Both the position numbers and the translations under genes were made by a program. A stretch of 64,000 bases of DNA, taken from the NCBI RefSeq assembly GCF_003014555.1, contig NZ_PYGE01000005.1, forward strand, positions 1-64,000, read 5' to 3'. Shown here in pieces: positions 46,349 to 58,946 of the stretch; the stretch's first letter is position 1; every line of letters begins with the position of its first letter. Under the pieces are notes generated by a model that saw only the letters and a program-made list of their open reading frames with translations, did not search any database and was not told where the DNA came from. The stretch is from Haloactinopolyspora alba. Its GTDB lineage: Bacteria > Actinomycetota > Actinomycetes > Jiangellales > Jiangellaceae.

Positions 46349-46924
46349 GTGGATATCGATCTGGCTGTCACGACCGTGGTGCTCGTCGAGGGCGAGAGCG
46401 ATCGATCCGCGCTCGAAAGCCTCGCCGCACGACGCGGCCGGGACCTCGCCGGCGACGGCGTCGCGGTCGTGGCCATGGGCGGTGCCACCAACGTCGGACA
46501 CTACCTGCGACACTTCGGCCCGGCGGGCCGCGGCCTCGAGGTGGCCGGGCTGTACGACGAGGCCGAGGAGCGGTTCTTCCGCAACGGGCTGGCGTCGGCG
46601 GGGCTCGGCGACGTCAGCACGCGAGGCGAGCTCGAAGCCCTCGGCTTCTTCGTCTGCGTGCGGGACCTCGAGGACGAGCTGATCCGCGCCGTCGGTGTGG
46701 CCACGGTGCTGGAGCTCGTCGCCGACGAAGGCGAACTGTCGTCGTTCCGCGTGTTGCAGAACCAGCCCGCGCACCGCGGCCGGAACACCCACGACCAGCT
46801 GCGACGGTTCATCGGGACCCGGGCGGGGCGCAAGATCCGGTACGGCCGGCTGCTGGCCGAGGCGGTCGATCTCGACCGGGTCCCGGCGTCGCTGGACGGT
46901 GTGCTCGAGCAGTTGCCCCGCTAG
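46349..46924 (+). CDS. Stand-alone TOPRIM domain protein (OLD-nuclease-like)
   Basis: A 191-residue protein. The TOPRIM core is TTVVLVEGESDRSALESLAARR, with the invariant Glu14 followed by ESD. Then VAVVAMGGATNVGHYLRHF and VAGLYDEAEERFF supply the second acidic motif of the fold. In OLD-family nucleases this domain follows an ABC ATPase; here there is none, and the C-terminus (HDQLRRFIGTRAGRKIRYGRLLAEAV) resembles the tail of the OLD TOPRIM unit. A stand-alone form is widespread in actinobacteria. It could be a metal-dependent nuclease or a nucleotidyl transfer enzyme. The GTG at 46349 follows GGAGCAGACC. Confidence 0.82.
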   Translation: MDIDLAVTTVVLVEGESDRSALESLAARRGRDLAGDGVAVVAMGGATNVGHYLRHFGPAGRGLEVAGLYDEAEERFFRNGLASAGLGDVSTRGELEALGFFVCVRDLEDELIRAVGVATVLELVADEGELSSFRVLQNQPAHRGRNTHDQLRRFIGTRAGRKIRYGRLLAEAVDLDRVPASLDGVLEQLPR

Positions 46925-49498: not shown

Positions 49499-49574
49499 TG
49501 GTGCCCTCGGCAGGATTCGAACCTGCGACACTCCGCTTAGGAGGCGGATGCTCTATCCCCTGAGCTACGAGGGC
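49499..49574 (-). tRNA. tRNA-Arg (anticodon CCU)
   Basis: A full cloverleaf reads on the minus strand from 49574. The acceptor GCCCTCG pairs with CGAGGGC. The D-loop sequence is AGCTCAGGGGATAGAGC. The anticodon loop CTCCTAA is closed by CCGC/GCGG, giving anticodon CCU (Arg, AGG codon). The T-arm GCAGGTTCGAATCCTGC is perfect. The discriminator is A and a 3' CCA is encoded (49499-49501). The 124 bp between it and the TetR stop at 49372 hold nothing I recognise. Confidence 0.97.
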
Positions 49575-50135: not shown

Positions 50136-51185
50136 TCAGTACTTCATACCCAACGCGGTGTGGACGCGCTGCAGAGTTCGGTCGGCCTCGGCGTTCGCGC
50201 GTTCCGCGCCGGCGAGCAGGACCCGTTCGACCAGGCCCGGCTCGGCGGCGTACTCGGCGCGGCGGGCGCGCACCGGACGCAGCTCCTCGTTCACGGCCTC
50301 GGTGACCAGCGCCTTGAGCGCGGAGGAGCCTTGGGGCCCGATACCTTCGGCGACGGACTCCGGCGTCTGCCCGGTGGCCAGCGCCGCGGTCAGCACCAGG
50401 GACGACACGCCGGGACGGGTCTGCGGGTCGTAGGTGATGACCCGCTCGTCGTCGGTGACCGCGCGGCGGACGAGCCGGGCCGTGTCGTCCTCGGACGCTC
50501 GCAGGTCGATCGCGTTCCCGCGGCTCTTGCTCATCTTGGTTCCGTCGATGCCCAGCAGCCTGGGCGCGGGCGAGAGCAGCGCCTGCGGCTCGGTGAACAC
50601 CGGCTGCTCACCGCCGTGGCTGTCGTTGAACCGGCGCGCGATCTGACGGGTCTGTTCCACGTGCGGCAGCTGGTCCTGCCCGACCGGCACCAGCGTGCCG
50701 TGGCAGAACAGGATGTCCGCCGCCTGGTGCACCGGGTACGTGAGCAGCAGGCCGCTCAGGGAGGAGACGCCGGCGCTCGCGGCTTCGTCCTTGACGGTGG
50801 GGTTGCGGCGTAGTTCCGCGACCGTCGTCAGCGCCAGGAACGGCAGCATGAGCTGGTTGAGGGCGGGCACGGCGCTGTGCGCGAAGATCGTCGTGCGCCG
50901 TGGGTCGATGCCGGCCGCGAGGTTGTCGAGGACGACCTCGTGCACGTTCGCGGCGATCTCGCCCGGTGCGGCCCGGTCGGTGATGACCTGGTAGTCGGCG
51001 ACGACGAGGAAGGTGTCGACGCCGAGGCGTTGCAGACGGACGCGGTTGCGCAGCGTCCCGAAGTAGTGCCCGAGATGCAGCGGGCCCGTCGGGCGGTCGC
51101 CGGTGAGGACGCGGTGACGGCTCGGGGCCGCTGTGACGGCGTCGTCGTCGGCGAGCAGGGAGGTCGAAGTCGTGGTGACGGTCAT
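50136..51185 (-). CDS. trpS: Tryptophanyl-tRNA synthetase
   Basis: A 349-residue class I synthetase that charges tRNA-Trp. The HIGH-type motif is in GDRPTGPLHLGHYFGT and the KMSKS motif is intact in GTKMSKSRGN. FLVVADYQVITD is the Trp/ATP-side strand of the family. The gene is preceded by a leader peptide with two adjacent Trp codons and two hairpins. This is the arrangement described for the auxiliary, indolmycin-resistant TrpRS1 of Streptomyces coelicolor, so this may be that inducible type rather than the housekeeping enzyme; no second trpS is in view. The ATG at 51185 has GGAG ten bases upstream. Confidence 0.93.
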   Translation of the reverse strand: MTVTTTSTSLLADDDAVTAAPSRHRVLTGDRPTGPLHLGHYFGTLRNRVRLQRLGVDTFLVVADYQVITDRAAPGEIAANVHEVVLDNLAAGIDPRRTTIFAHSAVPALNQLMLPFLALTTVAELRRNPTVKDEAASAGVSSLSGLLLTYPVHQAADILFCHGTLVPVGQDQLPHVEQTRQIARRFNDSHGGEQPVFTEPQALLSPAPRLLGIDGTKMSKSRGNAIDLRASEDDTARLVRRAVTDDERVITYDPQTRPGVSSLVLTAALATGQTPESVAEGIGPQGSSALKALVTEAVNEELRPVRARRAEYAAEPGLVERVLLAGAERANAEADRTLQRVHTALGMKY

Positions 51186-52095: not shown

Positions 52096-52131
52096 GTGAG
52101 GTATCCGGCCCCGACCCCCGATCGCCCGTGA
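52096..52131 (+). CDS. Possible leaderless 11-residue upstream ORF coupled to the helicase-like gene
   Basis: GTG at 52096 opens an 11-codon frame (MRYPAPTPDRP) whose TGA stop (52129-52131) overlaps the helicase-like gene's GTG start (52128-52130) in the GTGA arrangement. TAACCT at 52083-52088 is a good -10 for a transcript beginning at 52096, making the short frame leaderless. The large gene has no ribosome-binding site of its own, so translation could reach it by termination-reinitiation. Confidence 0.35.
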   Translation: MRYPAPTPDRP

Positions 52132-55100
52132 GTGCGGCGCGAGCCGACGCCGCCGACCCGGCTCCGACGCGTGCGGAGCTGGTGAGCCGCGCCGTCGACC
52201 AGTGGAGTGCCGACGTGTCCGCGCTGGGCGGGCGCGATCCGTTGCTGTCGTATCGCGACCTCAAGGTGGGCACGCTCGATCTCGCCGCGGCCGAGGCGGA
52301 GGCCCGGAAGGCCCTGCTTGCGGGCGAACGGGTCCTGGTCTCCAAGCTCTTCCCGTACGAGCCGCTGCGCAGCACGGCGCTGCGATCGGTGCGCGCCATC
52401 CGGGACAAGGCGCGGGAGCTGGCGGAGGAACGCGGCCTCCCGGTCTGCTACCTGGCGGTCGGCGTCGCCACTTGGGCGAACCCGTTCGCGGCCCGTCGCC
52501 CGAGCGCCCCTGTCGTGCTCCGGTCGGCGATGGTCACGGCTCGCGACCCCGCCGAGACCGACTTCTCGGTCACCGTCGCCGACGACCCGTTCGTCAATCC
52601 GGTCCTGCTGCACGCCCTGGACACCCAGCTCGGCCTCCGGTTCGACGCCGACGACCTGCGCGACCCGGCCGGACGGCTGCGCTACGCCACGGTGGTCGAG
52701 CGGCTGCGCGAGTTCGCGCCGCCGCACGTCGTGGACGGGTTCTCGATCGCGCACCGCGCCGTGCTGGCGACGTTCAGCACGGCGCCGCTGACCCTCTCGC
52801 GTGATCTCTCCGCGAGCGGCGGCGACCTGTACAGCCACGAGGCGGTGGCCGCGCTCGCCGGCGACCCTCCGGCGCTGAACTCGGTGGCGCGGCCCGGCGC
52901 CGCCGCCGAGCAGCGGTTCCGGGTCTTCGACACCGATGCCGAGCAGGACACCATCGTCTCGGTGGCCGCGGGCGGGGGGCACCTGCGGGTGGAGGCCGCA
53001 CCGGGAACCGGGCGGACCCAGACGGTCGCGGCCGTCGTCTCCGAGCTCGTGGGGCGCGGGCAGCGGGTGCTCGTCGTCGGGCAGAAGCGCACCACGCTGG
53101 ACAGCCTGGTCGACCGGCTGGACACCGCGGGACTGCGAGACGTGGTCCTGGACTTCGACCGGACCGCTCCGGCGGCCGCGGTCGAGCAGATCGGCGAGAC
53201 GGCGCGGCAGCTGGCCCGCCAGACCCCCGCGGCCGACGACGCCGACGCCGGGGGCCGTGCCGACGTGGCCGCGGCCGACCTGGACGCCTACCGCGACGCG
53301 ATCCACCGTGTCCGCCGTCCGTCCGGCACGTCGGCGTACGACGCCATGGTCCATGTCGCGACCGCTCCGGAGGAACGACGCAGCACCGCCCGGGTCACGC
53401 CGGAGGTGCTCGCCGAGGCCGACAGCACAGACACCGTGCGGGCGCGGCTGCGTGAGTTCGCCGACCTCGGTGGGCTGCGGCTCGACCGCGACACGTCCGC
53501 CTGGTACGGCGTCGACGTGCCGTCCGTGCAGGCGGCCGACGATCTGATGACCACCGTGACCGGCCTGCGCGAGCACGTGCTGCCGAGTCTGCGTGACTCC
53601 GCGACCCGCTCGGCCGTCGAGGTCGGGCTGGCCGGGCCGAACACGGTGGCCGAGTGCCTCGAGGTCGTCGACCTTCTCGGTTCCGTGTCCGGAACCGTCG
53701 AGGCCCTGGGCGCGCGGATCTGGGACGAGCCGCTCGCCGAGCTCGCCGTGGCCACGGGCGACCGGATGTATCGCGCCGAGAGCGACACCACCGTCGGGTT
53801 CCTCGCCCGGCGCCGGCTGCGCAAGCGGCTGGCCGAGACCACCGGACCCATCGGGCGGCAGGACCGCGCCCAGGTGCACCGCCAGCTCCTGGCCGCGCGC
53901 GAGCAGCTCGCCACCTGGCAGGCACGCTCACGCGACGGCAAGGCGCCGCGCACCGGCCCGCACCTGCCCGCGGCCGTCGAGGCGGCCGCCGCCGTCCGCG
54001 CCGAGCTGGCCACGCTCGCGCAGGCGCACCCGCGTGCCGGGGACCTCGCCGAGCTTCCGGTCGGCGAGGCGGCGGCGAGGCTGGACGATCTCATCGCCGA
54101 CGAGCAGAACCTGCGGTCGATGCCGCGCATCTACGAGCTGCAGGCCGAGCTCTCCGCCGCGGGGCTCGACGACCTGCTGGCCGAGCTGCGCAGCCGCGAC
54201 GTCGAGCCCAAACACATCGAAGAGATCTTCGACTACACGTGGTACCGCTCCCTGCTCGACTACTGGAGCCGCACCGACGCCGTGCTCACCTGGTTCGATC
54301 GGCGGCGGTTCGAGGACCGGGTGTCGGAGTTCTGTGCGTTCGACATCGACGACCAGCGCAGCGCGGCGCGCCGGGTGCTGCACGGCCGGCACCGCCACTT
54401 CGCCGCCGTCGCGGAGGAGTACGAGGGGCAGGCGGCCGTGCTCACCGAGTCGAGCGCCGACTCGCTGCCGCCGACACCGCGCGAACTTGTCGAGCAGGCG
54501 CCCGAGGTGGCGCTGTCGGCCGTGCCGTGCTGGGTCGCGTCCCCGTTGACGGTCGCTGACGCACTGCCGCCGCGGCAGCTGTTCGACGTGGTCGTCATCG
54601 AGGACGCCGGGCGGCTCGCGGTCGCCGAGGCGGTGCCGTCCATCGCGCGGGCCGAGCGGCTGGTGCTCATGGGCGACGACGAGGTGGCGCGCCCGCCGTT
54701 CACCACGGCGGTCGAGCCGGCGCCCGACCCGGACGAGCACGAGGGGCCGTGGGGCCAGGATCCGCCGGCGTCGGTGGTCGACCTGCTCCGCGGGGTGCTG
54801 CCGGAGCGGTTCCTGACCGGGCAGTACCGGGTCCGCGACCACCGGCTGGTGGGCTTCGCCGCGCACTCCACCTACGCGGGCCGGCTGACGACGGTCCCCG
54901 GCGTCGGCGGCCAGGGCCGCCTGGTCATGGATGTGGTCGATGCCGCGCCGGACGCGGACGACCCCGTCGACAGCGCTACGGCCGAGGTCGACCGCGTCGT
55001 CGAGCTGGTGCTCGAGCACGTGCGCACCCGCCCGCACGAGAGTCTGGGCGTGGTCACGCTCGGGCCGCGGCACGCGGAACGCCTCGACGCGGCGCTGCGG

Positions 55101-56330
55101 CGGGCACTGATCCGCGCGCCCGAGGTCGCCGGCTACCTCCGCGGCGACCGTGCCGAGCCGTTCTTCATCAAGAACGTCGAGCAGGTCGGCGGGGACGCCC
55201 GGGACGCGATCATCCTCAGCCTCGGGTACGGACGCTCCGTCGACGGGCGCATCCTGTACCGCTTCGGCGCCCTGGGCCGCCCCGGTGGTGAGCGCAGGCT
55301 GACCGCGGCGGCGACGTGCGCGCGTGAGCGGATGACCGTGGTCGCGACGTTCAGCGCCGACGACCTGAGCCCGCGGCGGCTGACCTCGGCGGGGGCTCAG
55401 GCGCTTGGCCGGTTCCTCAGTTATGTCCAGCACGGCGCGAGCACCGTCGAACCGGACGGACCGGGCGCCCCCGACGCGGTCGAGGCGCATTCGACGCCGC
55501 CGCGTGATGCCGACGCGTTCGCCGGCGTGGTGGCCGAGCGGCTGCGCGAGGCCGGCGTCGCAGCGGTCGTGGTGGGCCACGGCGGCCCGAACGGCATCGC
55601 CGTCGCGGTACGCCACCCCGTCCGAAGCGACCGGTTCGTGCTGGCGGTCGAGACGGACGGTCCCGCCTACGCGGCGCGCCGCGGAACCCGGGAGCGTGAG
55701 CGGCTGCGCCCGGCGCAGTTGCGCCGGCTGGGCTGGAACGTCCACCGGGTGTGGTCGGCGGCGTGGGCCGCGGACCCCGAGGGCGAGGTCCGGCGGCTGG
55801 TGGCCGCGTACGAGCAGGCGGTCTCCGACGCCGACGCGTACGACTGGGCCGTGGCTGCGGCCGAGGCGGACGTCGTCGCGGGCATGCCGGAGGACCCGTT
55901 CGAGGCCGAGTCCGACGCCGCGGACACGGAGGCCGAGAACACCGGAGACACCGAGAACACCGGAGACACCGAGAACACCGGAGACACCGGGGACGACCCC
56001 GACCCCACCGCCGGCGCGGCCGGCGACGCGGCGGACACGGCGGCCGACGACGACGCGGGCGCCGGGCAGGACACGGCTGCGGACGGCACGACGACCGGCA
56101 CGAAGCCGGTGCGGCCGCTGCTGGCCGCGGGCCGCTCGGTGAGCGAGTACGCCGGACGCGAGCTGGCTGCGCTGGCCCGATGGGCCGAGGACGCGGGCAC
56201 CGCACGGCGTGAGGACGACCTCGTCGACGTGCTCGCCGCGGAGCTGCAGTTGGCCGTCGACGACGCCCGTACCGCCGACGTGTTGCGGCACGCGGTGCGG
56301 GTGGCCCGCGCCGGAGCGCCCGTCCTCTAG
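52128..56330 (+). CDS. Large helicase-like protein with C-terminal restriction-endonuclease-like domain
   Basis: A 1400-residue protein related to actinobacterial DUF4011/SF1-helicase proteins. The P-loop region is VEAAPGTGR296TQTVAAVV, with Arg in place of the invariant Lys of Walker A. Walker B is VVVIE825D826AGRLAVAEAV, with the usual Asp-Glu order reversed. Later helicase stretches are LTGQYRVRDHRLVGFAAHS and VEQVGGDARDAIILSLGYG. The domain around residues 1140-1230 is REase_MTES_1575-like (LAVE1175TDGPAYAARRGTRER, LGWNVHRVWSAAW), a Vsr/PD-(D/E)xK fold. Residues 1270-1289 carry three ENTGDT repeats in an acidic linker. It may act in DNA repair or defence; altered Walker residues question normal ATP use. 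Confidence 0.8.
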   Translation: MSAARADAADPAPTRAELVSRAVDQWSADVSALGGRDPLLSYRDLKVGTLDLAAAEAEARKALLAGERVLVSKLFPYEPLRSTALRSVRAIRDKARELAEERGLPVCYLAVGVATWANPFAARRPSAPVVLRSAMVTARDPAETDFSVTVADDPFVNPVLLHALDTQLGLRFDADDLRDPAGRLRYATVVERLREFAPPHVVDGFSIAHRAVLATFSTAPLTLSRDLSASGGDLYSHEAVAALAGDPPALNSVARPGAAAEQRFRVFDTDAEQDTIVSVAAGGGHLRVEAAPGTGRTQTVAAVVSELVGRGQRVLVVGQKRTTLDSLVDRLDTAGLRDVVLDFDRTAPAAAVEQIGETARQLARQTPAADDADAGGRADVAAADLDAYRDAIHRVRRPSGTSAYDAMVHVATAPEERRSTARVTPEVLAEADSTDTVRARLREFADLGGLRLDRDTSAWYGVDVPSVQAADDLMTTVTGLREHVLPSLRDSATRSAVEVGLAGPNTVAECLEVVDLLGSVSGTVEALGARIWDEPLAELAVATGDRMYRAESDTTVGFLARRRLRKRLAETTGPIGRQDRAQVHRQLLAAREQLATWQARSRDGKAPRTGPHLPAAVEAAAAVRAELATLAQAHPRAGDLAELPVGEAAARLDDLIADEQNLRSMPRIYELQAELSAAGLDDLLAELRSRDVEPKHIEEIFDYTWYRSLLDYWSRTDAVLTWFDRRRFEDRVSEFCAFDIDDQRSAARRVLHGRHRHFAAVAEEYEGQAAVLTESSADSLPPTPRELVEQAPEVALSAVPCWVASPLTVADALPPRQLFDVVVIEDAGRLAVAEAVPSIARAERLVLMGDDEVARPPFTTAVEPAPDPDEHEGPWGQDPPASVVDLLRGVLPERFLTGQYRVRDHRLVGFAAHSTYAGRLTTVPGVGGQGRLVMDVVDAAPDADDPVDSATAEVDRVVELVLEHVRTRPHESLGVVTLGPRHAERLDAALRRALIRAPEVAGYLRGDRAEPFFIKNVEQVGGDARDAIILSLGYGRSVDGRILYRFGALGRPGGERRLTAAATCARERMTVVATFSADDLSPRRLTSAGAQALGRFLSYVQHGASTVEPDGPGAPDAVEAHSTPPRDADAFAGVVAERLREAGVAAVVVGHGGPNGIAVAVRHPVRSDRFVLAVETDGPAYAARRGTRERERLRPAQLRRLGWNVHRVWSAAWAADPEGEVRRLVAAYEQAVSDADAYDWAVAAAEADVVAGMPEDPFEAESDAADTEAENTGDTENTGDTENTGDTGDDPDPTAGAAGDAADTAADDDAGAGQDTAADGTTTGTKPVRPLLAAGRSVSEYAGRELAALARWAEDAGTARREDDLVDVLAAELQLAVDDARTADVLRHAVRVARAGAPVL
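55935..55988 (+). repeat. Three perfect 18-bp tandem repeats
   Basis: GAGAACACCGGAGACACC is repeated three times without change (55935-55952, 55953-55970, 55971-55988), coding for (ENTGDT)3 in an acidic, disordered linker between the nuclease-like domain and the C-terminal helices of the helicase-like protein. Identical copies point to recent slippage and likely length polymorphism between strains. Confidence 0.9.
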
Positions 56331-57284: not shown

Positions 57285-57686
57285 TCAGACCTCGGCGTCC
57301 GGGCGCTGACGGCGCAGTTCGTCGCGGATCTCGCGCAGCAGCAGCACGTCCTCGGTGGGCTCGTCCGGGGCGGCTTCGTCGGCCGCGGCCTGGCGTTCCC
57401 GCATCCGGTTGATCGGCAGCACGATGACGAAGTAGATGGCGGCGGCGACCACGACGAAGTTGAACGCCGCGGCGAGGATCAGCCCGATGGAGAAGTCGGC
57501 GTCGTTGATGGTGAAGTTGCCGACGCTGGTCAGGTCCGGTTGCCCGAAGATCGCCGCGACCAGCGGGTTGATCAGCCCGTCGACCACGGCGGTGACGATC
57601 TGGGTGAACGCGGCGCCGATGACGACGGCGACGGCCAGTTCGACCACGCTGCCTCGGCTGACGAAGTCGCGGAAACCCTTGAGCAC
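57285..57686 (-). CDS. mscL: Large-conductance mechanosensitive channel
   Basis: A 133-residue channel. MLKGFRDFVSRGSVVELAVAVVIGAAFTQIVTAVVDGLINPLV is the classic MscL N-terminal helix and TM1 (F-x-x-F-x-x-R-G-x-x-x-x-L-A-V-x-V-x-x-G). TM2 is FSIGLILAAAFNFVVVAAAIYFVIVLPIN, followed by a charged cytoplasmic helix (LLLREIRDELRRQ). It opens under membrane tension to release solutes. The window also has an MscS gene at 25597. It converges with the small acidic gene and lies downstream of the SAF gene on the same strand. Confidence 0.96.
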   Translation of the reverse strand: MLKGFRDFVSRGSVVELAVAVVIGAAFTQIVTAVVDGLINPLVAAIFGQPDLTSVGNFTINDADFSIGLILAAAFNFVVVAAAIYFVIVLPINRMRERQAAADEAAPDEPTEDVLLLREIRDELRRQRPDAEV

Positions 57687-58526: not shown

Positions 58527-58946
58527 TCAGGCCGCGGAGGACCCGGCGGTCGACTTGGTGGAGCCGGAATCCGACGAACCGGAACCGGACGAGCCCGATG
58601 ACCCCGACGAACCGGACGAGCTCGACGAGTCCGAGCCGGACGAGCTTCCGGACGACGAACTGTCGCCGGAGGACCCGCTCGACGAGTCGCTCGAGGACGA
58701 TCCGGAGCCGTTCGAGGACGAGGCGTCACTGCTCGCGGACGAGTCCCCGGACGAGGAGGACCCGTTTCCGGCACGGCTGTCGTTGCGGTAGAACCCGGAG
58801 CCCTTGAACACGACGCCAACGGCGGAGAAGACCTTGCGCAGCCGGCCGCTGCACGCGGGGCATTCGGTCAGGGAGTCGTCGGTGAAGCTCTGCACCGCTT
58901 CGAGCTCTTCGCCGCATTCGGTGCAGGCGTATTGATACGTGGGCAC
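58527..58946 (-). CDS. FmdB-family zinc-ribbon protein with long Ser/Gly tail
   Basis: A 139-residue protein. MPTYQYACTECGEELEAVQSF and LTECPACSGRLRKVFSAVGVVFKGSGFYRND form the FmdB_CxxC_CxxC domain with C8-x-x-C11 and C29-x-x-C32 as zinc ligands. Residues 60-139 are almost only Ser and Gly with some Asp, longer than in most relatives, and probably disordered. FmdB proteins are putative regulators first linked to formamidase and amidase genes, but most are of unknown role. The opposite strand has an apparent acidic ORF that only mirrors this Ser codon run. Confidence 0.9.
   Translation of the reverse strand: MPTYQYACTECGEELEAVQSFTDDSLTECPACSGRLRKVFSAVGVVFKGSGFYRNDSRAGNGSSSSGDSSASSDASSSNGSGSSSSDSSSGSSGDSSSSGSSSGSDSSSSSGSSGSSGSSGSGSSDSGSTKSTAGSSAA

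Follow-up and report, generated by a model that had tools for sequence, protein, structure and literature searches.

A probable pseudo-helicase/pseudo-nuclease of the short-form DUF4011 family in Haloactinopolyspora alba and related actinomycetes

The window analyzed here comprises positions 1 to 64,000 of the forward strand of Haloactinopolyspora alba contig NZ_PYGE01000005.1 (GCF_003014555.1) and contains, at 52128–56330, a gene whose 1400-residue product displays the domain order of a DUF4011 helicase-nuclease with degenerate catalytic motifs. We regard it, with a probability of about 0.7, as a vertically inherited pseudo-helicase/pseudo-nuclease which is kept for a non-catalytic job. Motif loss, conservation, synteny, selection and predicted fold can be read from the sequence, whereas the lack of ATP hydrolysis, nucleic-acid binding, a partner and a cellular role are inferred; most likely the protein serves for binding or as a scaffold, without enzymatic activity. 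An old family of this kind explains the data better than either gene decay or a role in defence.

Catalytic motifs of the window protein

The gene and the motifs on which this reading depends are as follows (SF1, superfamily 1).

52128–56330, + strand: coding sequence of 1400 amino acids (aa), GTG start; short-form DUF4011/SF1 helicase-like/MTES_1575 nuclease-like protein with degenerate catalytic motifs
52377–52619, + strand: DUF4011 match, residues 84–164 (Pfam, 31.8 bits, cut-off 22.2)
52998–53021, + strand: degenerate Walker A/motif I, residues 291–298 (APGTGRTQ), Lys replaced by Arg296 (codon 53013–53015)
54588–54608, + strand: degenerate Walker B/motif II, residues 821–827 (in VVVI-E825-D826-AG), Asp-Glu replaced by Glu825-Asp826
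54672–54686, + strand: motif III, residues 849–853 (GDDEV), canonical Gln replaced by Val853, GD kept
55185–55205, + strand: motif V region, residues 1020–1026 (VGGDARD, canonical VQGDERD), Gln (now Gly1021) and Glu replaced, RD kept
55314–55325, + strand: motif VI, residues 1063–1066 (TCAR, canonical TRAR), first Arg replaced by Cys1064
55518–55808, + strand: MTES_1575 Vsr-like nuclease-like domain, residues 1131–1227 (Pfam, 66.5 bits, gathering score 38.2)

The open reading frame (ORF), Arg296 in the P-loop, the Glu825-Asp826 pair and the nuclease-like end described in a first-pass annotation of this DNA are all present, the last as an MTES_1575 restriction-endonuclease domain. The damage had been understated, however, since motifs III, V and VI are altered as well and the first catalytic Asp of the nuclease is replaced by Ala1158 (codon 55599–55601); its ETD (ExD) motif is kept. 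The layout, described as well conserved, is so with respect to domain order and predicted fold but not with respect to the active sites. DUF4011 and MTES_1575 both exceed the Pfam gathering score, and in the trees the protein groups with the short forms, as expected for a member of the short-form DUF4011 family. The GxGK[ST] P-loop and DE Walker B of an active SF1 helicase are lacking, and of the catalytic Asp and ExD that mark an active Vsr-like nuclease only ExD remains. A match to AAA_11 (residues 270–333) reaches 25.7 bits, slightly below the Pfam cut-off of 27, and the same Pfam scan gave no match to HEPN or transglutaminase domains. Because GK[ST] is absent from the entire 1400 aa, the protein offers no second P-loop of that form. 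Cooperation with a second ATPase had also been considered; one of the DUF4011 type was rejected, as a search of the genome at E≤1 returned only the gene itself, while partners of unrelated type are conceivable. Judging from the motifs, the loss of hydrolysis supposed in the annotation is very likely, and a scaffold-type role would be compatible with it.

Motif loss across the family

The gene was found in all 22 Jiangellaceae genomes (that of the window and 21 others searched). Residue 296 is Arg in 21 of these and Thr in one (locus L022); as Lys is missing from 22/22 family orthologues, a sequencing error or a single-strain change is excluded, and strain-specific decay, the case that the first-pass annotation had held open, was rejected. 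The Q-motif Gln273 is present in all 22 proteins, Asp826 and the ExD Glu of the nuclease in 21 each and Glu825 in 19, whereas the first Arg of motif VI is kept in eight and replaced by Cys in 14.

Lys is likewise missing from 83 of the 91 short-form proteins aligned, leaving eight with intact ATPase motifs. Position 296 is occupied by Arg (24), Ala (13), Val (13), Thr (9), Gly (9), Lys (8), Gln (5), Leu (3), Ser (2) and five other residues once each. The sample from the order of genome G067, which at a guess is Actinomycetales in the wide sense, comprises 20 families; 17 are represented at the P-loop, and only two of them (f33 and f42) have Lys. The eighth Lys-bearing short form (L089, family f26) lies outside the order sample. 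Families f49 and f53 contributed only contig-cut pieces lacking the P-loop region, and all five short forms of family f51 combine Ala with a dead Walker B. Long DUF4011 paralogues (frames of 1690–2357 aa), by contrast, keep Lys and an intact Walker B in 10 of the 10 counted, including L039, L040 and L042 from Jiangellaceae genomes.

The losses coincide. Among 92 tree rows, Walker B DE is intact in 18/18 with Lys (10 long, eight short) and in 0/74 without; the nuclease Asp is present in 18/18 versus 14/74, and the first Arg of motif VI in 18/18 versus 42/74. Outside Jiangellaceae, the Lys column itself ranks at the 84th percentile for variability in the 61 Lys-less proteins. The AAA_11 score decreases from 70–80 bits in three intact short forms to the 25.7 bits of the window protein and 24.1 bits in L092; L096, L121 and L112 show no match at E≤0.01. 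A stray [AG]x4GK[ST] occurs elsewhere in 5/83 Lys-less proteins, the window protein not being one of them. L169 (G215:C9:10700-27600) encodes a distant relative of 1578 codons with an intact GPPGTGKT loop, the short form of the same genome being dead, and at L043 (G012:C3:373500-381000) a long paralogue is apparently split into frames of 1291 and 965 codons, the related L042 (G010) being a single frame of 1771.

Reach of the family and sampling

A 440-aa piece of the protein detected relatives in 28 of 148 class-wide genomes at E≤1e-20, and a 17-row profile matched 29 of the 148 at E≤1e-30; long paralogues and 11 Jiangellaceae contribute to each of these counts. Of the 149 genomes in the order of G067, 141 are matched by the profile at E≤1e-30, some holding long paralogues additionally or instead. 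Five of the other eight give weaker matches (down to E 6.8e-10) and three give nothing at E≤1e-6, one of these being only 62% complete.

From this order 60 further regions were taken, about one per genus and picked before their P-loops were known; most frames longer than about 1900 aa were passed over, as were the short frames of G172 and G192. Family f51 was not among the 60, and its five proteins, added later, stand outside the 91 proteins and the 80 loci used for genomic context. Duplicate genes (L031–L038, L103, L104) and a 575-aa fragment (L097) were left out ahead of the main alignment. Residue counts exclude two broken or truncated long paralogues (L043, L045) and L141, which is cut by a contig end; the 92-row tree omits these three and nine close Jiangella rows, and the 80-locus set omits L141 and L152. 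The open frames of the 91 short forms span 1192–1734 codons, loci with long frames having been preferred; the short frames from G140, G168, G172 and G192 stop at contig ends.

Phylogeny

The short form is a single clade with a support of 100 in both trees calculated (clades of 82 and 31 rows), separate from the long paralogues. Lys-bearing rows are located at the base of this clade (L089) and in one inner clade, and parsimony requires three changes of the Lys state in both trees. Placing all Lys-less rows in one clade is rejected by the approximately unbiased (AU) test (p=0.013); when L094, L105 and L106 are removed, a single clade of the remaining Lys-less rows is not rejected (p=0.123). The ATPase motifs were lost at least twice, a conclusion supported by these results. 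The 92-row tree was built with FastTree, which warned of two long branches (L137, L129), and the 35-row tree and AU tests used LG+G4 with no mixture model.

Retained residues and predicted fold

Despite the eroded motifs the proteins remain under constraint. The ratio of nonsynonymous to synonymous substitution rates (dN/dS; NG86, own script) is 0.147–0.332 in 13 Lys-less pairs and 0.261 in one intact pair (L119/L120). Of 94 columns that are invariant or nearly so in Lys-bearing forms, 10 are catalytic and 84 are not. Outside Jiangellaceae, the 61 Lys-less proteins retain the catalytic columns at a mean of 0.33 and the others at 0.64 (Mann-Whitney p=0.004); for the 22 Jiangellaceae the means are 0.34 and 0.77 (p=0.002). 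These p values are only a guide, as the rows are related. The worst-kept of the 84 columns often adjoin helicase motifs (898–902, 828, 290), which makes the contrast conservative. Moreover, 34 of 115 short-form-specific residues are still more than 80% conserved in the same 61 proteins. Twenty-seven of the 34 are situated in the N-terminal region (52–186) and a helical insert (399–706), which hints that the retained function may lie there.

An AlphaFold2 model of residues 30–1229 has a predicted local distance difference test (pLDDT) score of 88.9 and a predicted template modelling (pTM) score of 0.79, and shows a strand-loop-helix resembling a P-loop with high confidence. The pLDDT is 86.9 for 1200 residues of L116, which has no recognizable P-loop. 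The closest solved folds listed for both models are Ighmbp2, Dna2, Upf1, Aquarius and senataxin/Sen1, with the Upf1 type best. The window model matches 4b3f in Foldseek (E 1.3e-11) and superimposes with VIA Z scores of 20.7 on 4b3g (489 residues, 19% identity) and 19.9 on Dna2 5ean (490 residues, 15% identity). According to the model, the protein would contain a pair of RecA-like domains of the Upf1 type. Among the best 50 fold matches listed there is no RecC chain, which is not evidence against similarity, and AddAB chains appear only among the lower Foldseek matches.

Alternative explanations

Arg296 and the swapped Glu-Asp could in principle form a working alternative site of a helicase re-tuned in Jiangellaceae. 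The constancy of Arg (21/22), Glu825 (19/22), Asp826 (21/22) and Gln273 (22/22) would fit such an active NTPase, which we nevertheless consider unlikely: the Gln residues of motifs III and V are gone in nearly all 22 proteins and the first Arg of motif VI in 14, while sister lineages swap Lys for Ala, Val, Gly, Thr, Gln and others. In addition, it is reported for PriA that Lys-to-Arg kills the ATPase of the E. coli enzyme and that Deinococcus radiodurans PriA, with a natural Arg, is inactive (PMC4504706). It is extremely unlikely that the Lys-to-Arg change reflects nothing but GC pressure and has no meaning for function, although the gene has a GC content of 75% and the protein only 10 Lys among 1400 residues. 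Lys is retained in the long paralogues of same-family genomes (L039, L040, L042); in sister lineages its place is mostly taken by residues different from Arg, and no Lys-less row retains Walker B DE. Slow pseudogenization of a decaying gene is very unlikely as well. The stepwise erosion of motifs across lineages and the three order genomes lacking a match at E≤1e-6 (one of them the 62% complete assembly) would agree with it, but the 91 aligned proteins, chosen with a preference for long frames, have open frames of the lengths given above, and dN/dS is about 0.15–0.33. Preservation of the 34 short-form-specific residues, a confident fold and matches in 141/149 order genomes, some of them long paralogues, likewise speak against decay.

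The first-pass annotation had suspected a role in defence, and the sequence does resemble anti-phage proteins of the ProA/Hhe/PDC-S37 kind, with a PADLOC match to PDC-S37 (E 1e-155) and NCBIfam matches to ProA (485.5 bits) and Hhe (273.4 bits). A defence protein nevertheless appears quite improbable. The NCBIfam equivalog cut-offs are 1500 for ProA and 2000 for Hhe, so that the protein falls far short of membership; the gene is present in each Jiangellaceae genome searched, in a conserved chromosomal place beside mscL/fmdB rather than in a variable island; its GC content of 75% shows no foreign dip against the 69–73% around it; and the catalytic motifs are gone here, whereas 10/10 long relatives keep Lys and Walker B. 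Nine of ten neighbours scanned in the window are without a defence-type domain. The exception, 5 kb upstream, would favour defence: this ORF (46349–46924, + strand) encodes a protein of 191 aa in which an OLD-like TOPRIM domain (PF20469) stands alone, but it has no counterpart in the 31 loci compared. A defence island between the gene and mscL in genus g6 was considered and rejected, the insert at L048 consisting by eye, with no family search made, of methyltransferase-like, WYL/HTH-regulator-like and epoxide-hydrolase-like ORFs. In Pseudomonas aeruginosa, a defence hotspot is reported to be flanked by a DUF4011 gene that all isolates carry (PMC10250203), so that other core members exist.

Several observations weigh against a pseudo-helicase/pseudo-nuclease. 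Within Jiangellaceae Arg is nearly invariant and GTG-TQT is kept around it, so that the site might still work somehow. The nuclease Asp and the first Arg of motif VI survive in the 14 and 42 Lys-less rows given above, and the GD of motif III, the RD of motif V, the second Arg of motif VI and the ExD Asp lie at the 0–6th percentile of variability in the 61 Lys-less proteins, which makes residual activity conceivable. Death of the nuclease hangs mainly on one Asp; the first nuclease Glu is present in just one of eight Lys-bearing short forms, and the ExD Glu is missing from five of ten long paralogues yet kept in 21 of 22 Jiangellaceae. Alignment of the P-loop is uncertain for the most eroded rows, and independent-pairs tests comprised two to three pairs, too few for significance. 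An operon partner shared by the families was not detected, the upstream side of the 60 order loci being covered for about 2 kb only. Finally, an exact SOS box (GAACN4GTTC) occurs in 0/115 loci between −350 and +300 of the frame, long paralogues and gene duplicates included; an SOS-regulated repair gene was rejected on this ground.

Proposed function and comparison with known systems

In the pseudo-helicase/pseudo-nuclease reading, the ancestor would have joined an active SF1 helicase of the short DUF4011 form to a Vsr-like nuclease, its gene being located beside mscL/fmdB in Actinomycetes. Its ATPase centre would then have been switched off in Jiangellaceae, in most sampled families of the G067 order and, separately, in a small group that nests within intact ones. 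The nuclease Asp would usually have been lost too, while purifying selection presumably held the fold, the short-form-specific residues and the chromosomal position. By analogy with RecC and Deinococcus PriA, the protein could now serve as a platform to which nucleic acid binds, or as an inactive component of some larger complex with a housekeeping role, without ATP turnover. The rigid GTGRTQT of Jiangellaceae suggests that nucleotide may still be bound there but not hydrolyzed, for which RAD51 K133R offers a comparison. In the most eroded lineages even nucleotide binding seems to be lost. To the wider proposal, a near-universal, vertically inherited actinomycete family in which an active helicase-nuclease became a non-catalytic housekeeping factor handling nucleic acid on at least two and probably three occasions, we would give even odds.

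The window protein shares clear homology and the order DUF4011-SF1 helicase-MTES_1575 with the long helicase-nucleases ProA (NF058533), Hhe (NF042953) and PDC-S37. In contrast to the long DUF4011 proteins, the short form occupies its own supported branch, is mostly syntenic and is mostly motif-dead. MTES_1575 of Microbacterium testaceum is described as an SF1 helicase combined with a Vsr-type restriction endonuclease, a transglutaminase, HEPN and a winged helix-turn-helix (PMC3710099). The same nuclease domain family is thus joined to an SF1 helicase in both proteins; the window protein differs from the M. testaceum protein, as there described, in having no HEPN or transglutaminase match and in the loss of the nuclease Asp. 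With Upf1, Ighmbp2, Sen1 and Dna2, SF1B helicases which are active enzymes, the predicted fold is common, but the identities are merely the 19% and 15% given above.

PriA is a superfamily 2 helicase and accordingly belongs to another superfamily than the window protein, with another role. The likeness to its Deinococcus form lies in the GRT: for D. radiodurans a change from GKT to GRT with no ATP hydrolysis is described, and a natural GRT with a poor Walker B throughout a clade, DNA binding being kept (PMC4504706). Together with the degenerate motifs, this example, in which the same change kills the ATPase, is the ground on which loss of hydrolysis is proposed here. RecC consists of an inactivated helicase and an inactivated nuclease (PMC1185551), and provides a model of how such a protein could work, with both catalytic units dead and the fold retained for DNA handling. 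It is, however, a member of RecBCD with a PD-(D/E)xK-type domain (PMC1185551), whereas the window protein is Upf1-like with a Vsr-like domain and is not known to belong to a complex; no RecB/AddA domain was detected in the ten neighbouring window genes scanned. The best reading by analogy is that the family would work like RecC or Deinococcus PriA, probably without being a member of either.

No account of the short-form family was found in the literature searched on DUF4011, MTES_1575 and pseudohelicases. Pseudohelicases were previously known singly, as RecC, Deinococcus PriA and Utp25. If correct, the wider proposal describes a recurrent, order-wide conversion of an enzyme into a scaffold, whose stages Arg, Thr, Gln, Gly, Ala and full erosion can be compared at one locus; the ancestral helicase-nuclease would possibly have been a defence enzyme, domesticated next to mscL/fmdB. 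The series of intact to eroded orthologues, mostly at one locus, makes a catalysis-free role of the helicase-nuclease fold directly testable. It also advises caution, as homology alone is insufficient to label such genes defence systems.

Genomic context and further features

In the window, the helicase-like gene is followed by a CBS gene, mscL, a SAF-domain gene and fmdB. These neighbours and the remaining features of the gene are as follows.

55933–55989, + strand: tandem repeat with a period of 18 bp (3.2 copies, 100% match), encoding ENTGDT units that form part of an acidic linker ahead of the C-terminal tail
56100–56327, + strand: C-terminal tail, residues 1325–1400, conserved in Jiangellaceae, absent from L022
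56433–57104, + strand: CBS-domain gene, next downstream, about 100 bp behind; adjacent in some Jiangellaceae only
57285–57686, − strand: mscL, convergent neighbour, conserved across loci
58527–58946, − strand: fmdB-type zinc ribbon gene, conserved neighbour

The claim that no partner genes are adjacent is correct only in part: both mscL and fmdB are conserved beside the gene in convergent orientation, and the CBS gene lies on the same strand in some loci. Among 80 loci, fmdB is near in 58, mscL in 55 and either or both in 67, two of the latter (L112, L148) relying on an mscL-like frame on an unexpected strand. Downstream and convergent placement of mscL is seen in 51/80. The 13 loci with neither gene include regions that end early. 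Seven of the eight Lys-bearing orthologues have the mscL/fmdB location in common, L089 being elsewhere, and in f51 fmdB is near in 4/5 loci and the SAF gene in 5/5. Same-strand genes that recur further on, usually past mscL/fmdB, encode a penicillin acylase (29 loci) and products labelled by eye as rimJ-like (36) and moeA-like (24).

The CBS gene trails on the same strand in 13 of 31 loci (two genes counted twice), in Jiangellaceae only, and is missing in genera g2, g5 and g6; it could be co-transcribed with the helicase-like gene. CBS domains often bind adenine nucleotides.

The acidic linker varies in length, being greatly extended in some orthologues from Jiangella (L010, a frame of 1652 codons). 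The C-terminal tail has no Pfam match; it aligns only tentatively with the C-terminal part of the long paralogues, and may be of winged-helix nature.

On the other side of the gene, a tRNA synthetase of tryptophanyl/tyrosyl type (349 aa; 50136–51185, − strand) adjoins it in Jiangella loci and was not found in g2, g5 and g6. The sole tRNA found in the window is a tRNA-Arg (CCT) at 49499–49574 (− strand).

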